From a virus: a stretch of DNA of 26,189 nt. The translations under genes were made by a program, and so were the position numbers. The number at the start of each line of letters is the position of its first letter. Within the stretch, counting starts at the first letter, position 1. Below, one piece after another: positions 1 through 26,189 of the stretch. The DNA lies in the IMG/VR virus record IMGVR_UViG_3300021368_001851, positions 1 through 26,189 of that record; one strand, written 5' to 3'. Below the pieces are notes generated by a model. That model made no database searches. It was not told the origin of the DNA and saw only the letters and a list, made by a program, of their open reading frames with translations.

Positions 1-375
1 GCCCTGCCTTGCCTCGCCTTGCCGTGCCCGGCCTTGCCTAGCCATGCCTGCCCTGCCGTGCCGTGCCAAACCCAGCCCAGGCATGCCACGCCAAGCCTTG
101 CCATGCCTGCCGTGCCTTGCCCCGCCTAGCCGTGCCTCGCCTTGCCGCGCCAAGCCCGGCCATGCCTTGCCATGCCTGCCATGCCGTGCCGTGCCGCGCC
201 ACGCCTGGCCAAGCCATGCCTAGCCTCGCCTCGCCGCGCCTCGCCTGCCGTGCCGCGCCACGCCTGGCCAAGCCATGCCTCGCCGCGCCTCGCCTCGCCT
301 GCCTCGCCTTGCCGTGCCTAGCCTTGCCCGGCCACGCCGCGCCTGGCCTAGCCAAGCCTTGCCTTGCCTGCCATG
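1..375. repeat. Degenerate GCCNN pentanucleotide array
   Basis: About 75 head-to-tail units of GCC followed by two variable bases (TT, TC, GT, AT, TG, AA, AC, GC, TA, CG and others) run from the window edge to within about 6 bases of the stop codon of the leftmost minus-strand gene. Occasional 4-base units shift the phase, and 61-85 is the most degenerate part. A 34-base segment is repeated exactly at 188-221 and 247-280, so there is also higher-order duplication. The array is far richer in G+C than the rest of the window. Long open frames on both strands here are artefacts of the 5-base period. The left end of the array is outside the window. Function unknown. Confidence 0.9.
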
Positions 376-380
376 ATCAC

Positions 381-875
381 CTAAACACTAGCGGCCAAAT
401 TTGCTGCATTAGTGATATGTTTAGCAAGTTGCTTCACTTTCCGCTTCGTAGCGGCTGGCATTTGTTTAGCGTCGGTCAGTTCATTTACTGACTTTTGCAT
501 TCCGTTCAATTGGGATTGCAACCGTTTTAAAGAATATTCCCACATCTCGGTGTCTTGCAATACTAAATCAATAGGCATATATTGGCGCTCATCGTCTTTT
601 ATCGTTAGGACGTATTCACGGCGCTCAATTTCCGCTTCCTTAATAACTATTGACCGGGTAAGAGTTCCGGCTTGGTTTTCGCGAAACTTTTGAGCCGCCA
701 CGCTATTATCCCACTCAAAAACACTGTGTAATGGATTCGATTTACTACGGGCCTCGTCTACGATCACCGCAGGCGTTAATTTTCCCCGTTCACGCCTAAT
801 TCGATCCAGTTCTTTTTTTGCCGTTGGGGCATCAACTCCGCTAACCCGATAACCGTTAATAAATTTAATAATCAT
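381..875 (-). CDS. Conserved phage hypothetical protein, second gene of left minus operon
   Basis: Encodes 164 aa from the ATG at 875. I chose this start because it lies one base after the stop of the upstream gene (TAA-T-ATG), which suggests translational coupling; an in-frame ATG at 911 would overlap that gene. The product is charged. An N-terminal part (about 15-80) reads ELDRIRRERGKLTPAVIVDEA followed by SNPLHSVFEWDN and FRENQAG. I associate this W/D-centred pattern with widespread phage proteins of unknown function, from memory and not checked. The C-terminal third is Lys/Gln/Ala-rich and probably helical. No catalytic motif or membrane segment is visible. The gene ends right at the pentamer array. 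Its partner upstream is the 209-aa protein, and the two probably act together. Confidence 0.75.
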   Translation of the reverse strand: MIIKFINGYRVSGVDAPTAKKELDRIRRERGKLTPAVIVDEARSKSNPLHSVFEWDNSVAAQKFRENQAGTLTRSIVIKEAEIERREYVLTIKDDERQYMPIDLVLQDTEMWEYSLKRLQSQLNGMQKSVNELTDAKQMPAATKRKVKQLAKHITNAANLAASV

Positions 876-876
876 A

Positions 877-1506
877 TTACTTCGTTTTAATGGTGAAAAG
901 TCCATACCCAAGGCCGTTGCTTTTTTTGCTAAACGGGCGACCTTCCCCGATCCCGACTTGCTGCCCTGCCCTTAAAAGAAGATTATAAACATCCTCGGCG
1001 GTAAATTGGCCTTGGTCAAATCTTATTCTAAGGATTGCGCCCCATTTTCTCCACATCGGACGTACACGAATATCTGCGACTCCGGTAGCATTCCTGACGG
1101 CTAAAGATGTGGGTTCCGGCGGATTGCCTAGAATTTGTACTAAAGGCGTTCCATCTAACTCATCATATCCGTCCGCTTCAATAAAGACCGACATTCTAGC
1201 GTGAGTCATTTTAAAGCCGACCATTCGACAGGCATCAATACAGGCATTCCGAAAAGCGGCGGCGGGAATGCCGTTCCATCCATCTTCTGAAATGTGTTGA
1301 GCCTGTTTAAAGTCTTCGTCAAAATCACGCGCCTTTCTTTTCTTTTTTGAAGTTGATGTGCTCCCGGCCTCCATCTTTTCTTTCATCGCTTTCATTGCTT
1401 TCTCCGTAAATCGTAACTGCATATACGGTGCAGTCCCTTCAATTTCTACGTTTAGAATCTGAAAATTAGGAGCCTCAATAGTTACAGCTCTTTTTACTTT
1501 TGACAT
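877..1506 (-). CDS. Conserved phage protein with RAMP-like features, first gene of left minus operon
   Basis: Encodes 209 aa. The first 50 residues look like a beta-rich start (VTIEAPNFQILNVEIEG), followed by a Lys-rich linker (about 50-65). A central motif GIPAAAFRNACIDACR (about 79-94) precedes a conserved-looking VRNATGVADIRVRPMW, and the C terminus has a Gly-rich stretch GIGEGRPFSKKSNGLGYG (about 184-201). A Gly-Pro-Ala-FR helix start and a terminal Gly-rich loop resemble the layout of RAMP/Cas7-like folds, but this is a visual analogy only. I recall similar proteins in many phages without a known function. The leader upstream carries two hairpins, one of terminator type directly before the start codon, so expression may be attenuated. 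It is transcribed away from the portal gene. Confidence 0.8.
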   Translation of the reverse strand: MSKVKRAVTIEAPNFQILNVEIEGTAPYMQLRFTEKAMKAMKEKMEAGSTSTSKKKRKARDFDEDFKQAQHISEDGWNGIPAAAFRNACIDACRMVGFKMTHARMSVFIEADGYDELDGTPLVQILGNPPEPTSLAVRNATGVADIRVRPMWRKWGAILRIRFDQGQFTAEDVYNLLLRAGQQVGIGEGRPFSKKSNGLGYGLFTIKTK

Positions 1507-1510
1507 AATT

Positions 1511-1547
1511 AAAATAAAAAAAACCCACCGTGTGACGCCAGTGGGTT
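1511..1547 (-). terminator. Terminator-type hairpin directly before the left minus operon (attenuator candidate)
   Basis: On the minus strand a 7-bp stem (AACCCAC/GTGGGTT, arms 1541-1547 and 1522-1528) with a 12-base loop is followed at once by a run of eight T and more AT-rich sequence. The structure ends only about 15 bases before the ATG at 1506. Intrinsic terminators normally lie after genes. Here it sits in the leader, which suggests attenuation, or termination of antisense transcripts entering from the head genes. Confidence 0.55.
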
Positions 1548-1560
1548 AGATTAGTAAAAC

Positions 1561-1596
1561 TAGCTTTTAGGCCAGCGTCACCAACCCTAAAAGCTA
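1561..1596. promoter_or_regulatory. Second leader hairpin with loop complementary to its neighbour
   Basis: A perfect 11-bp inverted repeat (TAGCTTTTAGG at 1561-1571, CCTAAAAGCTA at 1586-1596) encloses a 14-base loop. The loop contains GCGTCAC (1575-1581), the exact reverse complement of GTGACGC (1532-1538) in the loop of the neighbouring hairpin. The two loops could therefore kiss in RNA, or the two halves could pair in an alternative fold. A short third inverted repeat (AGGTAA/TTACCT) lies at about 1640-1658. Confidence 0.6.
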
Positions 1597-1702
1597 TTTA
1601 AGACCATAAAGGTATAAAACCTATAGATAATAAGCAAACAGGTAATAAGTTCTTACCTAAACACCCCAAAAAATATTTCAACTTGCCCCAAAATCATACA
1701 AT

Positions 1703-2983
1703 TTGGGCATTTGGAGCAACATAACGCGGGTTTTTGTCAAAGAAGTAGACGAACCGACTGAAAACGTCGAAAATCGTAGCTTTTTGCAACAAATGGGCAC
1801 GTCTATAGATGACATTATCTCTTCCTTTGGTTTCAACAAATCCAACTCAGGCCAAAACGTAGACTCAAAAAGCGTTCTTGGCCTTTCTGCTGTTTGGCGG
1901 GCATTAACCATCTTATCTGATTCAATCGCTTCATTACCTATCGAAGTAGTCCAAAAGACAGCCGAAAATACAACGCTTAACGCTGTACGTCATCCGGTGA
2001 CGCGATTACTTACAATTTCGCCCTCTCCCCTATTCACGCCGTATACCTGGATTCACACAATGGTAGCACACGCGGCATTAACTGGTAATGCTTATGCGAT
2101 CATCAAACGGGAACGCGTAACAAGATACCCGAAAGAGATATTAGTGGTAGAACCTCATCGGGTAACGGCTCACATTTTAGATGGTGATAAGTTGGTTTAT
2201 AAAATTGACGGTATAAACAAGACCTACAAGGCGGATGACATTATACATTTTGGCGGCCTATCTTTTACTGGTTTGGCCGGTATCAATGTTTTGGAAACAT
2301 TAGCGGATAACTTTGGTTTGGCTCTTGCTAATCAGGAATATTTAGCGAAGTTTTTTGCTGATGGTGCGACCCTATCGGGAGTCATTAAACACCCCGGACG
2401 GTTAGATGATAACGCGATGCGAAGACTCCGCCGCTCATGGGAATCTTCCTACGGCGGTTCTAGTAATTCCGGCAAAACGGCGATACTAGAACAAGGCATG
2501 GATTATGAAGCGACCGGACTAAGCCCACAACAGGCAGCAGCCGGGGAAACCAAAAAGTTAACCATTGCGGATATATCGCGGATTTTCGGCGTACCTCAAT
2601 TCTTATTGGAAGACTTAGACCGGGCAACGTTTAACAATATTGAACACTTGTCTTTGCTCTTTATTAAGCACACCATCCGGCCTTGGTGCAAACGTATCGA
2701 AGCAGAACTCAACCGCAAACTTTTTCCCTTAGACGAACAGGGCGAATATATAGCCCGCTTTGATCTGGACGACTTGTATATGTCTGATCTGGACAGCAGA
2801 GGAAAATATATAGAAACGATGATGAAATGGGGTGTACTGAGTCGAGACGAAATACGCGCACGTGAAAAATACAATCCAATTGCAGACGGGAGTGGTGCTA
2901 AGTATTTCGTGCCGATGAACATGCAAGACCCCACCGAACCAAAACCGGAACTAGAAAAAAATATACCTGGTGAGGATCAATAA
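1703..2983 (+). CDS. HK97-family portal protein
   Basis: Encodes 426 aa, a normal length for an HK97-type portal, the dodecameric ring at the capsid vertex through which DNA enters and leaves. Typical features are LSAVWRALTILSDSIASLP (61-79), the TGNAYAIIKR segment (128-137), the ADDIIHF strand (about 177-183), and the C-terminal IFGVPQFLLED and FNNIE region. The frame is open back to a stop at 1658 but contains no ATG. The first plausible start is TTG at 1703, giving MGIWSNITRV, which resembles usual portal N termini. No clear ribosome binding site is visible. Terminase genes, which normally precede the portal, are absent; two minus-strand genes occupy that place. The prohead protease follows 18 bases downstream. 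Confidence 0.95.
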   Translation: MGIWSNITRVFVKEVDEPTENVENRSFLQQMGTSIDDIISSFGFNKSNSGQNVDSKSVLGLSAVWRALTILSDSIASLPIEVVQKTAENTTLNAVRHPVTRLLTISPSPLFTPYTWIHTMVAHAALTGNAYAIIKRERVTRYPKEILVVEPHRVTAHILDGDKLVYKIDGINKTYKADDIIHFGGLSFTGLAGINVLETLADNFGLALANQEYLAKFFADGATLSGVIKHPGRLDDNAMRRLRRSWESSYGGSSNSGKTAILEQGMDYEATGLSPQQAAAGETKKLTIADISRIFGVPQFLLEDLDRATFNNIEHLSLLFIKHTIRPWCKRIEAELNRKLFPLDEQGEYIARFDLDDLYMSDLDSRGKYIETMMKWGVLSRDEIRAREKYNPIADGSGAKYFVPMNMQDPTEPKPELEKNIPGEDQ

Positions 2984-3610: not shown

Positions 3611-4843
3611 ATGAAAAGTGTTGCAGATTTGAGGCACGAGTACCTCAATATACGCGAACAGATGCGCGATCTTATCAACCGCGCTAAAGGCGAAAGCCGG
3701 GATTTGTCCGATGAAGAAAACGGGCAATTTATGAAAATGCACGAGGATCAAGAAAAGCTTGACAAAGCCATTCAAGCCCGTAGCATTATTACAGGCATGG
3801 ACGCACAGGCTCAGGGGCAAAACATTCTAGAAATGAACGTTGAACCCGAAGACACACGCAGCAACGAAGAGCAATATTTTGATGCGTTTGCCGACTTCAT
3901 GAAGAACGGACAGCGGGCGAACAAACGCAGCTTGAACGTCCTTGAAAAGCGGGGTACTTCTACCATTACTACTGAAACAACAGGCGGTATTTATGGTGGC
4001 TACGCTGTACCTGAAGAACTGGACCGCGAATGGACAAAAGTTTTGAAACAATACGGCGGGATGATGTCTGCCGCGCGAGTGATCAGAACGCAAACCGGAG
4101 GAACGTGGAACCATACCTACACGGATGATACCGCGACCGCTGCCTTGCTGACAGTAGAAGCAAGTGCAACCACTTTGCAAGACTTTTCTTTCTCTCGCAT
4201 TGAGTTAGGTTCTTATACCTACCGCTCTAGCGTATTGCTTTCAATGGAAGAAATTCAGGATGAGCAGGTGGGAGTAGTTGGATACCTCAACGAAATGCTA
4301 GGTATTCGGATGGGCCGCGCATTAAATACCGCCTTCACGACTGGCGACGGTTCGAGCAAACCAACCGGACTATTGGCGGCTTCAGGTGGAGCGCCAACCG
4401 GAAAGACAGCAGCTAGCGCAACGGCTATCACATCAACCGAAATTCTCGATCTGATACACAGCGTTGACCCTGCGTACCGCATGGGGCCGAACGTGCGATT
4501 AATGTTCAATGATAGCACCCTGGCAGCAATTAAGAAGCTGCAACTAGGTAGCTCTGATTCTTCCCCGCTTTGGGTTCCTGATATGCGGAGCGGAGGAGAA
4601 GGAAATACAATTTGGGGTTACAATTACGTAATTAATCAGGACATGCCGACAATTGCGACCGGGGTTAAGTCTATCGCATTTGGTGACTTTTCCTACTACG
4701 TCATTCGCGAAGTACGAACCCCAACCTTTGTACGCCTGAACGAACTGTATATGGCCAATCTTTCGCAAGGGTTTTTAGCGTTTAGTCGCTACGACGCAAA
4801 ACTTATTCCTGTAGGAGCGATCAAGCTCTTAGTACAAGCGTAA
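3611..4843 (+). CDS. Major capsid protein, HK97 fold
   Basis: Encodes 410 aa. Residues 1-70 form a charged helical, coiled-coil region (LRHEYLNIREQMRDLINRAK) that corresponds to the delta/scaffold domain of HK97 gp5 and would be removed by the upstream protease. The mature shell domain probably begins around residue 110-120, before GGIYGGYAVPEELDREW. Internal motifs typical of phage_capsid family members include SRIELGSYTYRSSVLLSMEEIQD, the GDGSSKPTGLLAASGG loop and a C-terminal FVRLNELYMANLSQGFLAFSRYDAKLI. The stop codon overlaps the ATG of the next gene (TAATG). Confidence 0.95.
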   Translation: MKSVADLRHEYLNIREQMRDLINRAKGESRDLSDEENGQFMKMHEDQEKLDKAIQARSIITGMDAQAQGQNILEMNVEPEDTRSNEEQYFDAFADFMKNGQRANKRSLNVLEKRGTSTITTETTGGIYGGYAVPEELDREWTKVLKQYGGMMSAARVIRTQTGGTWNHTYTDDTATAALLTVEASATTLQDFSFSRIELGSYTYRSSVLLSMEEIQDEQVGVVGYLNEMLGIRMGRALNTAFTTGDGSSKPTGLLAASGGAPTGKTAASATAITSTEILDLIHSVDPAYRMGPNVRLMFNDSTLAAIKKLQLGSSDSSPLWVPDMRSGGEGNTIWGYNYVINQDMPTIATGVKSIAFGDFSYYVIREVRTPTFVRLNELYMANLSQGFLAFSRYDAKLIPVGAIKLLVQA

Positions 4844-23825: not shown

Positions 23826-23862
23826 GCCGGGGCAGTTAGAGATGAGGCCCCGGCGTTTTTTT
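23826..23862 (+). terminator. Terminator after the recombination genes
   Basis: An 8-bp GC stem, GCCGGGGC (23826-23833) and GCCCCGGC (23847-23854), with a 13-base loop, followed by G and seven T. It ends the operon that contains ssb. The same 8-base arms occur, in opposite order, in the long-loop structure at 25937-26002. Confidence 0.88.
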
Positions 23863-23893
23863 AATCTGACATTTAATTGAAAAACTATAAATT

Positions 23894-24661
23894 ATGAAAG
23901 ATAAACCGAGTTATTACGGGATACTCCCCGCAAATGTCAGATACGACAAAAGACTCAAACCTATGAGCCGAATAATGTATGCGGAAATAACGGCATTATC
24001 TAACAAATGGGGTTATTGTACTGCAAACAATAGATACTTTGCCGACTTATACGAAGTTTCTACCGCGACGGTTAGCCGTTGGTTTAGTCAGCTTGTTAAA
24101 CTAGGGTACGTCAAAATAGATATAGATAAGGCAAAAGGAAACGAAAGGAAAATTTACCCTTATGACCAAAACGTCAAGACCTATAAACAAAAAGATCAAA
24201 ACCCTATTGACAAAAAGATCAAAACCCCTATTGACGAAAAGATCATATATAATAATACAAGTATTAATACTACAAGATTAATAGATAGAGAGGACACCCG
24301 CGCAAAAACTACTTCATTAAATTCTTCTTCTGAAATTCAAAAAGAAAAAATTGCGGCAAAAAGAAAAAGGTTTCAACCTCCCACACTCGAAGAGGTGGAA
24401 GCTTACATGCTGCACATCGTAGACTCGACAACAGCAACTAAGCAAGCAAGCCTTTTTTACAATTACTACGAGTCAAACGGTTGGAAGGTCGGACGCAACA
24501 AAATGAAAAAATGGAAATCGTCTGCATCAGGTTGGATCGGAAGAATGAATAATTACACATCAACCAATATAAAAAATGAAAAAACAAATGATACTTATGG
24601 AGCGGCAAGAATTGACACGCTCAGAGCCGCACTTGCGGAGCTTAACGCAGGTGATTATTAA
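23894..24661 (+). CDS. Replication initiator with winged helix-turn-helix
   Basis: Encodes 255 aa. The N-terminal 85 residues (ILPANVRYDKRLKPMSRIMY, NNRYFADLYEVSTATVSRWF, LVKLGYVKI) are a winged helix-turn-helix domain of the type found in phage replication initiators (O/DnaD-like). A Lys/Asn/Thr-rich linker (about 90-155) contains the DNA iterons. The C-terminal domain starts FQPPTLEEVEAYM and has YNYYESNGWKVGRNKMKKWK, a DnaD-like ending shared by many phage replication proteins. It most likely binds the origin inside its own gene and loads helicase. The next gene starts 11 bases before its stop (GTG) or, alternatively, 86 bases before. Confidence 0.8.
   Translation: MKDKPSYYGILPANVRYDKRLKPMSRIMYAEITALSNKWGYCTANNRYFADLYEVSTATVSRWFSQLVKLGYVKIDIDKAKGNERKIYPYDQNVKTYKQKDQNPIDKKIKTPIDEKIIYNNTSINTTRLIDREDTRAKTTSLNSSSEIQKEKIAAKRKRFQPPTLEEVEAYMLHIVDSTTATKQASLFYNYYESNGWKVGRNKMKKWKSSASGWIGRMNNYTSTNIKNEKTNDTYGAARIDTLRAALAELNAGDY
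24167..24290 (+). other. Candidate replication origin: iterons plus AT-rich stretch inside the initiator gene
   Basis: Tandem repeats run head to tail: a degenerate copy at 24167-24187, CAAAAAGATCAAAACCCTAT plus TGA at 24188-24210, a 24-base copy at 24211-24234, and a partial copy from 24235. The two best copies are 23 bases apart and are therefore read in different frames (QKDQNPI versus KKIKTPI), so the repetition is at DNA level. Each of the last three copies contains GATC. A 50-base AT-rich stretch follows, with the palindrome AGTATTAATACT (24260-24271). The layout matches lambda ori in the O gene. Confidence 0.68.
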
Positions 24662-25910: not shown

Positions 25911-25936
25911 TGAATTTGGAGTTTTTCGTAATCATA

Positions 25937-26002
25937 GCCCCGGCAATTATTATCTAACAATGTTGAATGATTTTTTAACCGTACCTCGCCGGGGCATTTT
26001 TT
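25937..26002 (+). terminator. Terminator-like stem with unusually long loop
   Basis: Arms GCCCCGGC (25937-25944) and GCCGGGGC (25988-25995) enclose 43 bases and are followed by ATTTTTTAATT. The T run supports a terminator, but the loop is far longer than normal. Between the stop at 25871 and the next start at 26024 there is no gene. Confidence 0.55.
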
Positions 26003-26023
26003 AATTAACAAAACCACATCAAA

Positions 26024-26189
26024 ATGGAAAACGGGCAAAAAGTACATCACCGGACAGCGAAGGCAAATGGGATCGTTAAGCGAATAAGCAATGTAAACAG
26101 GAATATGATATATGTCGTGTTTCACTGCAACAACGATTGGGATAATTACGCTAATTACTCAGCCGCGTTAATTTCGAAGAGCAGTCTTG
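26024..26189 (+). CDS. Partial small hypothetical gene at the window end
   Basis: An open frame from ATG at 26024 runs off the window with 55 codons visible (MENGQKVHHRTAKANGIVKR, MIYVVFHCNNDWDNYANYSA). The A-rich leader resembles other starts here. The pattern G-x-V, Y-V-V-F and a Trp/Asn/Tyr stretch suggests a small beta-rich domain protein; family not recognised. Confidence 0.6.
   Translation, partial: MENGQKVHHRTAKANGIVKRISNVNRNMIYVVFHCNNDWDNYANYSAALISKSSL

Follow-up and report, generated by a model that had tools for sequence, protein, structure and literature searches.

The leader of a phage VIPR operon contains two adjacent hairpins with complementary loops, the second of which is a predicted intrinsic terminator, and this two-hairpin element appears, with a likelihood that we put just short of even, to be a 5' leader attenuator of the operon that involves a loop-loop contact. 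The stretch of DNA analyzed here (hereafter, the window) comprises 26,189 nucleotides of the virus record IMGVR_UViG_3300021368_001851. Given that a stop-signal hairpin lies right before vipr, the leader probably controls the amount of VIPR that is made.

The VIPR operon and its array

VIPR systems have been described only in a 2026 preprint (PMC13142463), which presents them as RNA-guided repressors that are carried by phages and may have been the forerunners of CRISPR. Each system consists of a single Vipr protein, an accessory gene and vrRNAs in which YNNGG is repeated 9-16 times. In VIPR systems, DNA is bound under RNA guidance according to a 1-nt skip rule. Compared with these systems as described there (Vipr RAMP protein, vap, GGY/NN vrRNAs; PMC13142463), the window operon is alike in the presence of a Vipr homolog, a second gene and an array. 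The first gene, vipr (877-1506, minus strand; phrog_4652), encodes a protein for which a profile built from 35 relatives matches PDB entry 36pp ("SUSP1 Vipr"; E=5e-6); the AlphaFold model of this protein has a mean pLDDT of 85, and the top Foldseek matches are Csm and type VII RAMP subunits (Csm/Cas7-type). The second gene (381-911, minus strand; phrog_15946) recurs beside vipr homologs, being adjacent to them in L003, Cyanophage Cy-LDV1 and phages of Gordonia and Mycobacterium, and its product is a probable vipr-accessory protein that shows no match to any named vap, PDB structure or PADLOC model. Positions 1-375 of the same strand contain a GGC/NN vrRNA array, with guides of 9-13 NN units and 4-nt GGCA units between them, that is truncated by the window end; arrays of the GGC/NN type are found beside nearly all examined loci with vipr homologs. 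In PHROGs, both operon proteins are classed as having unknown function, and PADLOC has no model for the locus. Judging from the sequence comparisons and the structural model, positions 1-1506 are a complete-looking VIPR locus in a Bacteroidota-type phage and, with a Vipr gene and a GGC/NN array behind it on the same strand, the two-hairpin element is the leader of this VIPR operon.

No good match that would point to self-targeting by the guides of the window was detected. Nearly all the guides differ between the window (1-375) and the relative L110 (6870-7330), although these phages are ~95% identical elsewhere; the last, partial guide of the window (AT TA AA CG AC AA GA AA AG) begins a guide in L110.

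Two hairpins with complementary loops

Hairpin 1 (1596-1561, minus strand) consists of an 11-bp stem, TAGCTTTTAGG / CCTAAAAGCTA, and a 14-nt loop, GTTG-GTGACGC-TGG. Hairpin 2 (1547-1516, minus strand), the predicted intrinsic terminator, combines a 9-bp stem with a U-tract and carries GCGTCAC in its loop. The core stem of hairpin 2, AACCCAC / GTGGGTT (1547-1522), comprises 7 bp, or 9 bp when the inner U.G and G-C pairs are counted; a run of eight T (1523-1516) overlaps the last two stem bases, and the gap between the hairpin and the vipr ATG (1504-1506) is 15 nt. An initial, sequence-only reading of this DNA reported a 7-bp hairpin followed by eight T, about 15 nt from the ATG at 1506, with an 11-bp hairpin just upstream, and both are indeed present at these positions on the minus strand.

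The same reading noted that the loops are complementary, and this holds as well: GTGACGC of loop 1 (1581-1575) and GCGTCAC of loop 2 (1538-1532) are exact 7-nt complements, each centered in its loop. The match is beyond chance, with a terminator-type hairpin and an upstream hairpin that share at least 7 nt of loop complementarity occurring at 0.0015 per window in 677 first-order Markov windows, and with none of 4000 dinucleotide-shuffled versions of the 196-nt leader containing a loop-matched pair. Hairpins 1 and 2 are the only pair of this kind within the window. Two additional G-U pairs, also part of the original claim, are present, yet their formation would come at the expense of the inner pairs in hairpin 2. 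The operon-strand terminator directly precedes the first gene, and no other leftward gene is located upstream. A further proposal, that the element insulates the operon from divergent transcription of the head genes, finds no support because these genes run in the opposite direction and the U-tract of hairpin 2 is found on the minus strand only. A search of Rfam identified no family for the leader, the scores for PyrR and MicC being weak and far below the threshold.

Predicted promoter and transcript

A Bacteroidota-type promoter is predicted at 1638-1607 (minus strand), with a -33 box TTTG (1638-1635), a 20-nt spacer and a -7 box TACCTTTA (1614-1607). The pattern TTTG-N19-21-TAHHTTTR occurs twice in the entire window, one of the two occurrences being at this site; no standard sigma-70 promoter was found at the leader, and the Bacteroidota promoter is the better fit. 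In the consensus for Bacteroidota, the -7 box spans positions -12 to -5 (PMC6847099, PMC9723704) and, from this placement, we infer that transcription starts at ~1602, about 6 nt before hairpin 1, so that hairpin 1 would lie at the 5' end of the transcript, which would measure ~87 nt when terminated. Consistent with the promoter type, none of the 31 genes is preceded by a Shine-Dalgarno-like motif and 20 of them have an A at -3, as is seen in Bacteroidota (PMC6847099). A comparison of the portal protein with genome contigs identified no host.

Folding of the leader

In the RNAfold minimum free energy structure, the terminator is accompanied not by hairpin 1 but by a competing 16-bp hairpin with many G-U pairs (1587-1548, minus strand) that is mutually exclusive with hairpin 1 and masks GTGACGC. 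With pseudoknots disallowed, the fold with this alternative hairpin beats the hairpin 1 fold by 2.6 kcal/mol. The computed energies are -13.1 kcal/mol for hairpin 1 (-16.2 with weak inner pairs), -17.8 for the alternative hairpin, -14.5 for the terminator and -13.2 for the loop-loop duplex, the latter with the kissing penalty left out; by these values, hairpin 1 together with the kissing contact could outcompete the alternative once loop 2 has been made. The two-hairpin region is more stable than its shuffled versions (z of -3.8 for 111 nt and -4.5 for the core).

No classical antiterminator is found in the nested folds, where the terminator forms both with hairpin 1 and with the alternative hairpin. 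Therefore, any switch must act either on timing, via the loop contact, or via a factor; besides the kissing contact, only a transient GGGUU:AACCC pairing could interfere with the terminator. The initial reading, which invoked attenuation or a kissing-loop switch, is partly supported: the sequence has a leader terminator and a loop-matched upstream hairpin, and attenuation with a putative loop-loop contact is still the interpretation that we favor.

Conservation of the leader in a relative

When viral contigs were scanned with patterns four times and genome contigs once, a single relative that possesses the leader emerged, L110 (the same record as L002 and L082), whose contig is 94.8% identical to the window, so that the covariation evidence stays thin; the remaining matches were checked and are unrelated or coding. 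The first-copy leader of L110 has both loops the same as those in the window. Its terminator stem differs from that of the window at three sites, with an A-U pair replaced by U.G and a U.G pair replaced by C-G, and all nine pairs are kept. Beyond its own array, the end of which is ~80 nt away, L110 carries the promoter region and hairpin 1 once more, as a diverged second copy. Between the two copies, 37 of 40 positions are identical in hairpin 1 with its first bases, and 13 of 14 in loop 1, against only 21 of 37 in the stretch just upstream that corresponds to the promoter. The stem of hairpin 1 in the second copy displays one compensatory double change, from A-U to C-G; the sequence of loop 1 is GUGAUGC, with the contig stopping inside loop 2, before the matching base. 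The alternative hairpin is mostly retained in the second copy: its outer pairs persist as G-U or G-C despite three changes in the spacer, although it lacks one of the A-U pairs and has a single-position deletion. Taken as sequences, the window leader and the two L110 copies support the stems, and the pattern of changes suggests that loop 1 is under constraint.

Other vipr leaders and array tails

Among the 36 vipr upstream regions that were scanned for kissing pairs, the intergenic leader of L008 (61% Vipr identity; divergent from the upstream gene) contains hairpins at 3857-3971 with the loops GUUUGGU, ACCAAAC and GUUUGGU, of which the middle one has 13 bp and the third one ends just before the start codon. 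At least two such pairs occur in 3 of 4000 shuffles of this leader, which corresponds to ~0.03 after correction for the 36 regions; because L008 was chosen out of these regions, this case is given modest weight. No kissing pairs were found in L245, a relative of L008, and most of the examined vipr leaders have none. The kissing pairs of L017, L044/L045, L057 and L060 were not counted because most of them are 97-165 nt upstream and seem to fall within the preceding genes.

The tails that follow the arrays in L004 (3891-3945), L009 (2925-2985), L015 (1954-2010) and L017 (3469-3530) form H-type pseudoknots with a covarying second helix, the loop and its downstream partner being GTGATG/CATCAC in L004, GCCGGT/ACCGGC in L009, GCGAT/ATCGC in the L015 type and GTGAG/CTCAC in L017. 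Because these pseudoknots remain matched while changing in sequence, loop-to-downstream pairing is a common RNA architecture around vipr. In L004, the array and its tail are located immediately before vipr, and the tail has GTGATGC in common with the second copy of hairpin 1 (local alignment p 0.025). The window copy was rejected as a vrRNA tail by sequence because it could not be aligned with the tail of L004 (p 0.995), and the direct sequence link between the array tails and the window leader is weak. L003 has a mini-array (GGCAC GGCAT GGCAA GGCAGGC) within a long leader hairpin directly before vipr (3875-3960), possibly a short guide for self-regulation.

A possible attenuation mechanism and its alternatives

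The sequence-level support for the attenuator consists of the elements themselves, the identity of the operon, the stem-preserving changes and the non-random loop match, and we infer promoter use, termination, the kissing contact with its direction, and any trigger. Under this scheme, the polymerase would start at ~1602 and transcribe hairpin 1 at once, followed by the terminator, with 9-10 nt between the end of its U-tract and the vipr ATG. The bulk of the transcripts would stop at ~1516, after ~87 nt, whereas readthrough would yield vipr, the accessory protein and the guides. The 7-mer of loop 1 may pair with GCGUCAC as the latter emerges, ahead of the 3' arm of the terminator; such a contact would be somewhat likelier to slow the closure of the terminator, and hence to favor readthrough, than to strengthen the terminator. 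If hairpin 1 refolded into the alternative hairpin, GUGACGC would be hidden and termination would be favored. A candidate trigger is Vipr itself. It is decidedly improbable, by our estimate, that Vipr, or its complex with a guide, recognizes the leader as a loop-paired, vrRNA-tail-like RNA and so decides on termination before vipr; if true, this feedback would amount to an autoregulatory switch of a CRISPR-like system in which the loop sequences evolved differently in each phage (the window and L008).

The leader could also be a plain one, with a stabilizing hairpin at the 5' end and then a partial terminator that acts constitutively and merely reduces the expression of VIPR; in this case, the complementarity of the loops would be accidental or no more than structural. 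That neither predicted fold opens the terminator fits this explanation, as does the recurrence of terminators without loop-matched partners before start codons (genes at 23894 and 26024; L086), but a loop match expected at 0.0015 per window does not, nor does the retention of 13 of 14 positions in loop 1 where the promoter of the second copy fell to 21 of 37; altogether, we regard a plain leader as somewhat unlikely. Another explanation invokes the VIPR RNAs, with hairpin 1 and its partner being akin to the pseudoknot of the vrRNA 3' tail and having been retained as a leader or small RNA to which Vipr binds, resulting in feedback. The covarying, downstream-pairing loops in the tails of L004, L009, the L015 type and L017, the position of the L004 array and tail right before vipr along with the GTGATGC found in the second copy, the L003 leader-hairpin mini-array that occupies the same place, and the pseudoknot reported for the vrRNA tail in the VIPR preprint (PMC13142463) are all compatible with such an origin. 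However, neither copy has a GGY/NN repeat tract directly before hairpin 1, the window copy fails to align with the L004 tail (p 0.995) and, unlike in the tails, the partner is part of the loop of a terminator, which makes a VIPR RNA element rather improbable. Finally, the inverted GTGACGC repeats or the dyad of hairpin 1 might bind a regulator at the DNA level. Hairpin 1 is a perfect dyad that is preserved by both changes in the second copy, and an operator-like inverted repeat is close by; nevertheless, the A-U to U.G change in the terminator stem preserves RNA pairing while breaking DNA symmetry, the U-tract is strand-specific and the predicted start is upstream of the dyad, so we consider a DNA operator very unlikely.

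Relationship to known RNA regulators

In pT181-type antisense attenuators, a loop-loop contact occurs near an intrinsic terminator in the leader, the partner being a separate antisense RNA; engineered relatives of these attenuators have reportedly been made. The window leader is alike in the potential for a loop-loop contact next to a terminator, but here both loops belong to one RNA. The guanidine-II (mini-ykkC) riboswitch consists of two small neighboring leader hairpins with a loop-loop contact and ACGR loops, and binds guanidine. The window leader also has two neighboring hairpins; their loops, GUUGGUGACGCUGG and GCGUCACA, lack ACGR, and there is no Rfam match. The put RNA of phage HK022, a transcript that likewise begins with two hairpins, renders the polymerase resistant to later terminators with no need for a protein; in the window leader, also with two hairpins at the predicted transcript start, hairpin 2 is the terminator itself. 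The L5-L13 kissing loop of the cobalamin riboswitch, which connects a sensor hairpin in cis with an expression hairpin, resembles the potential contact in the window leader, but the riboswitch combines a ligand aptamer with a ribosome-site hairpin whereas the leader has a terminator and no aptamer core (PMC10907184).

The main text of the VIPR preprint (PMC13142463) describes no leader attenuator before vipr, whereas the window has a candidate one, and a search of the literature found no account of the control of VIPR by phages. The leader terminator, together with the loop-matched hairpin before vipr, is a concrete candidate regulator of VIPR.

Genomic surroundings

The portal gene (1703-2983, plus strand; PF04860, E=1e-94) is divergent from the VIPR operon. 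Between the divergent genes, beside the -33 box, there is an operator-like inverted repeat, AGGTAATAAGTTCTTACCT (1640-1658), variants of which are located upstream of the portal gene in L083/L238, L084, L085, L086 and L087 and also beside the second copy in L110. In all near relatives, an inverted repeat of the AGGTAA..TTACCT or GTTACA..TGTAAC type is found ~45-60 nt upstream of the portal gene; it is a candidate operator for the head operon or for the leftward promoter. In L238 and L085, the terminator of the terminase operon is followed by the inverted repeat and the portal gene, with nothing intervening; L086 has another gene between this terminator and the portal gene, and L003 has a VIPR module at the terminase-portal site, on the opposite strand. 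Because the site differs among these relatives, VIPR occupies a variable cargo site. The window adds a VIPR locus of a Bacteroidota-type phage, with a placement between terminase and portal that varies among relatives.

Other terminator-type hairpins with U-tracts are located 15-35 nt before start codons in the window (23835-23894 and 25930-26024) and, in L086, after TerL, which hints that leaky termination or antitermination may be general among these phages. Two regions of the window, 1750-2450 (N-terminal region of the portal protein) and 4500-4700 (part of the capsid gene), have diverged strongly from L110, with flanks that are ~98-99% identical, a pattern of local recombination.
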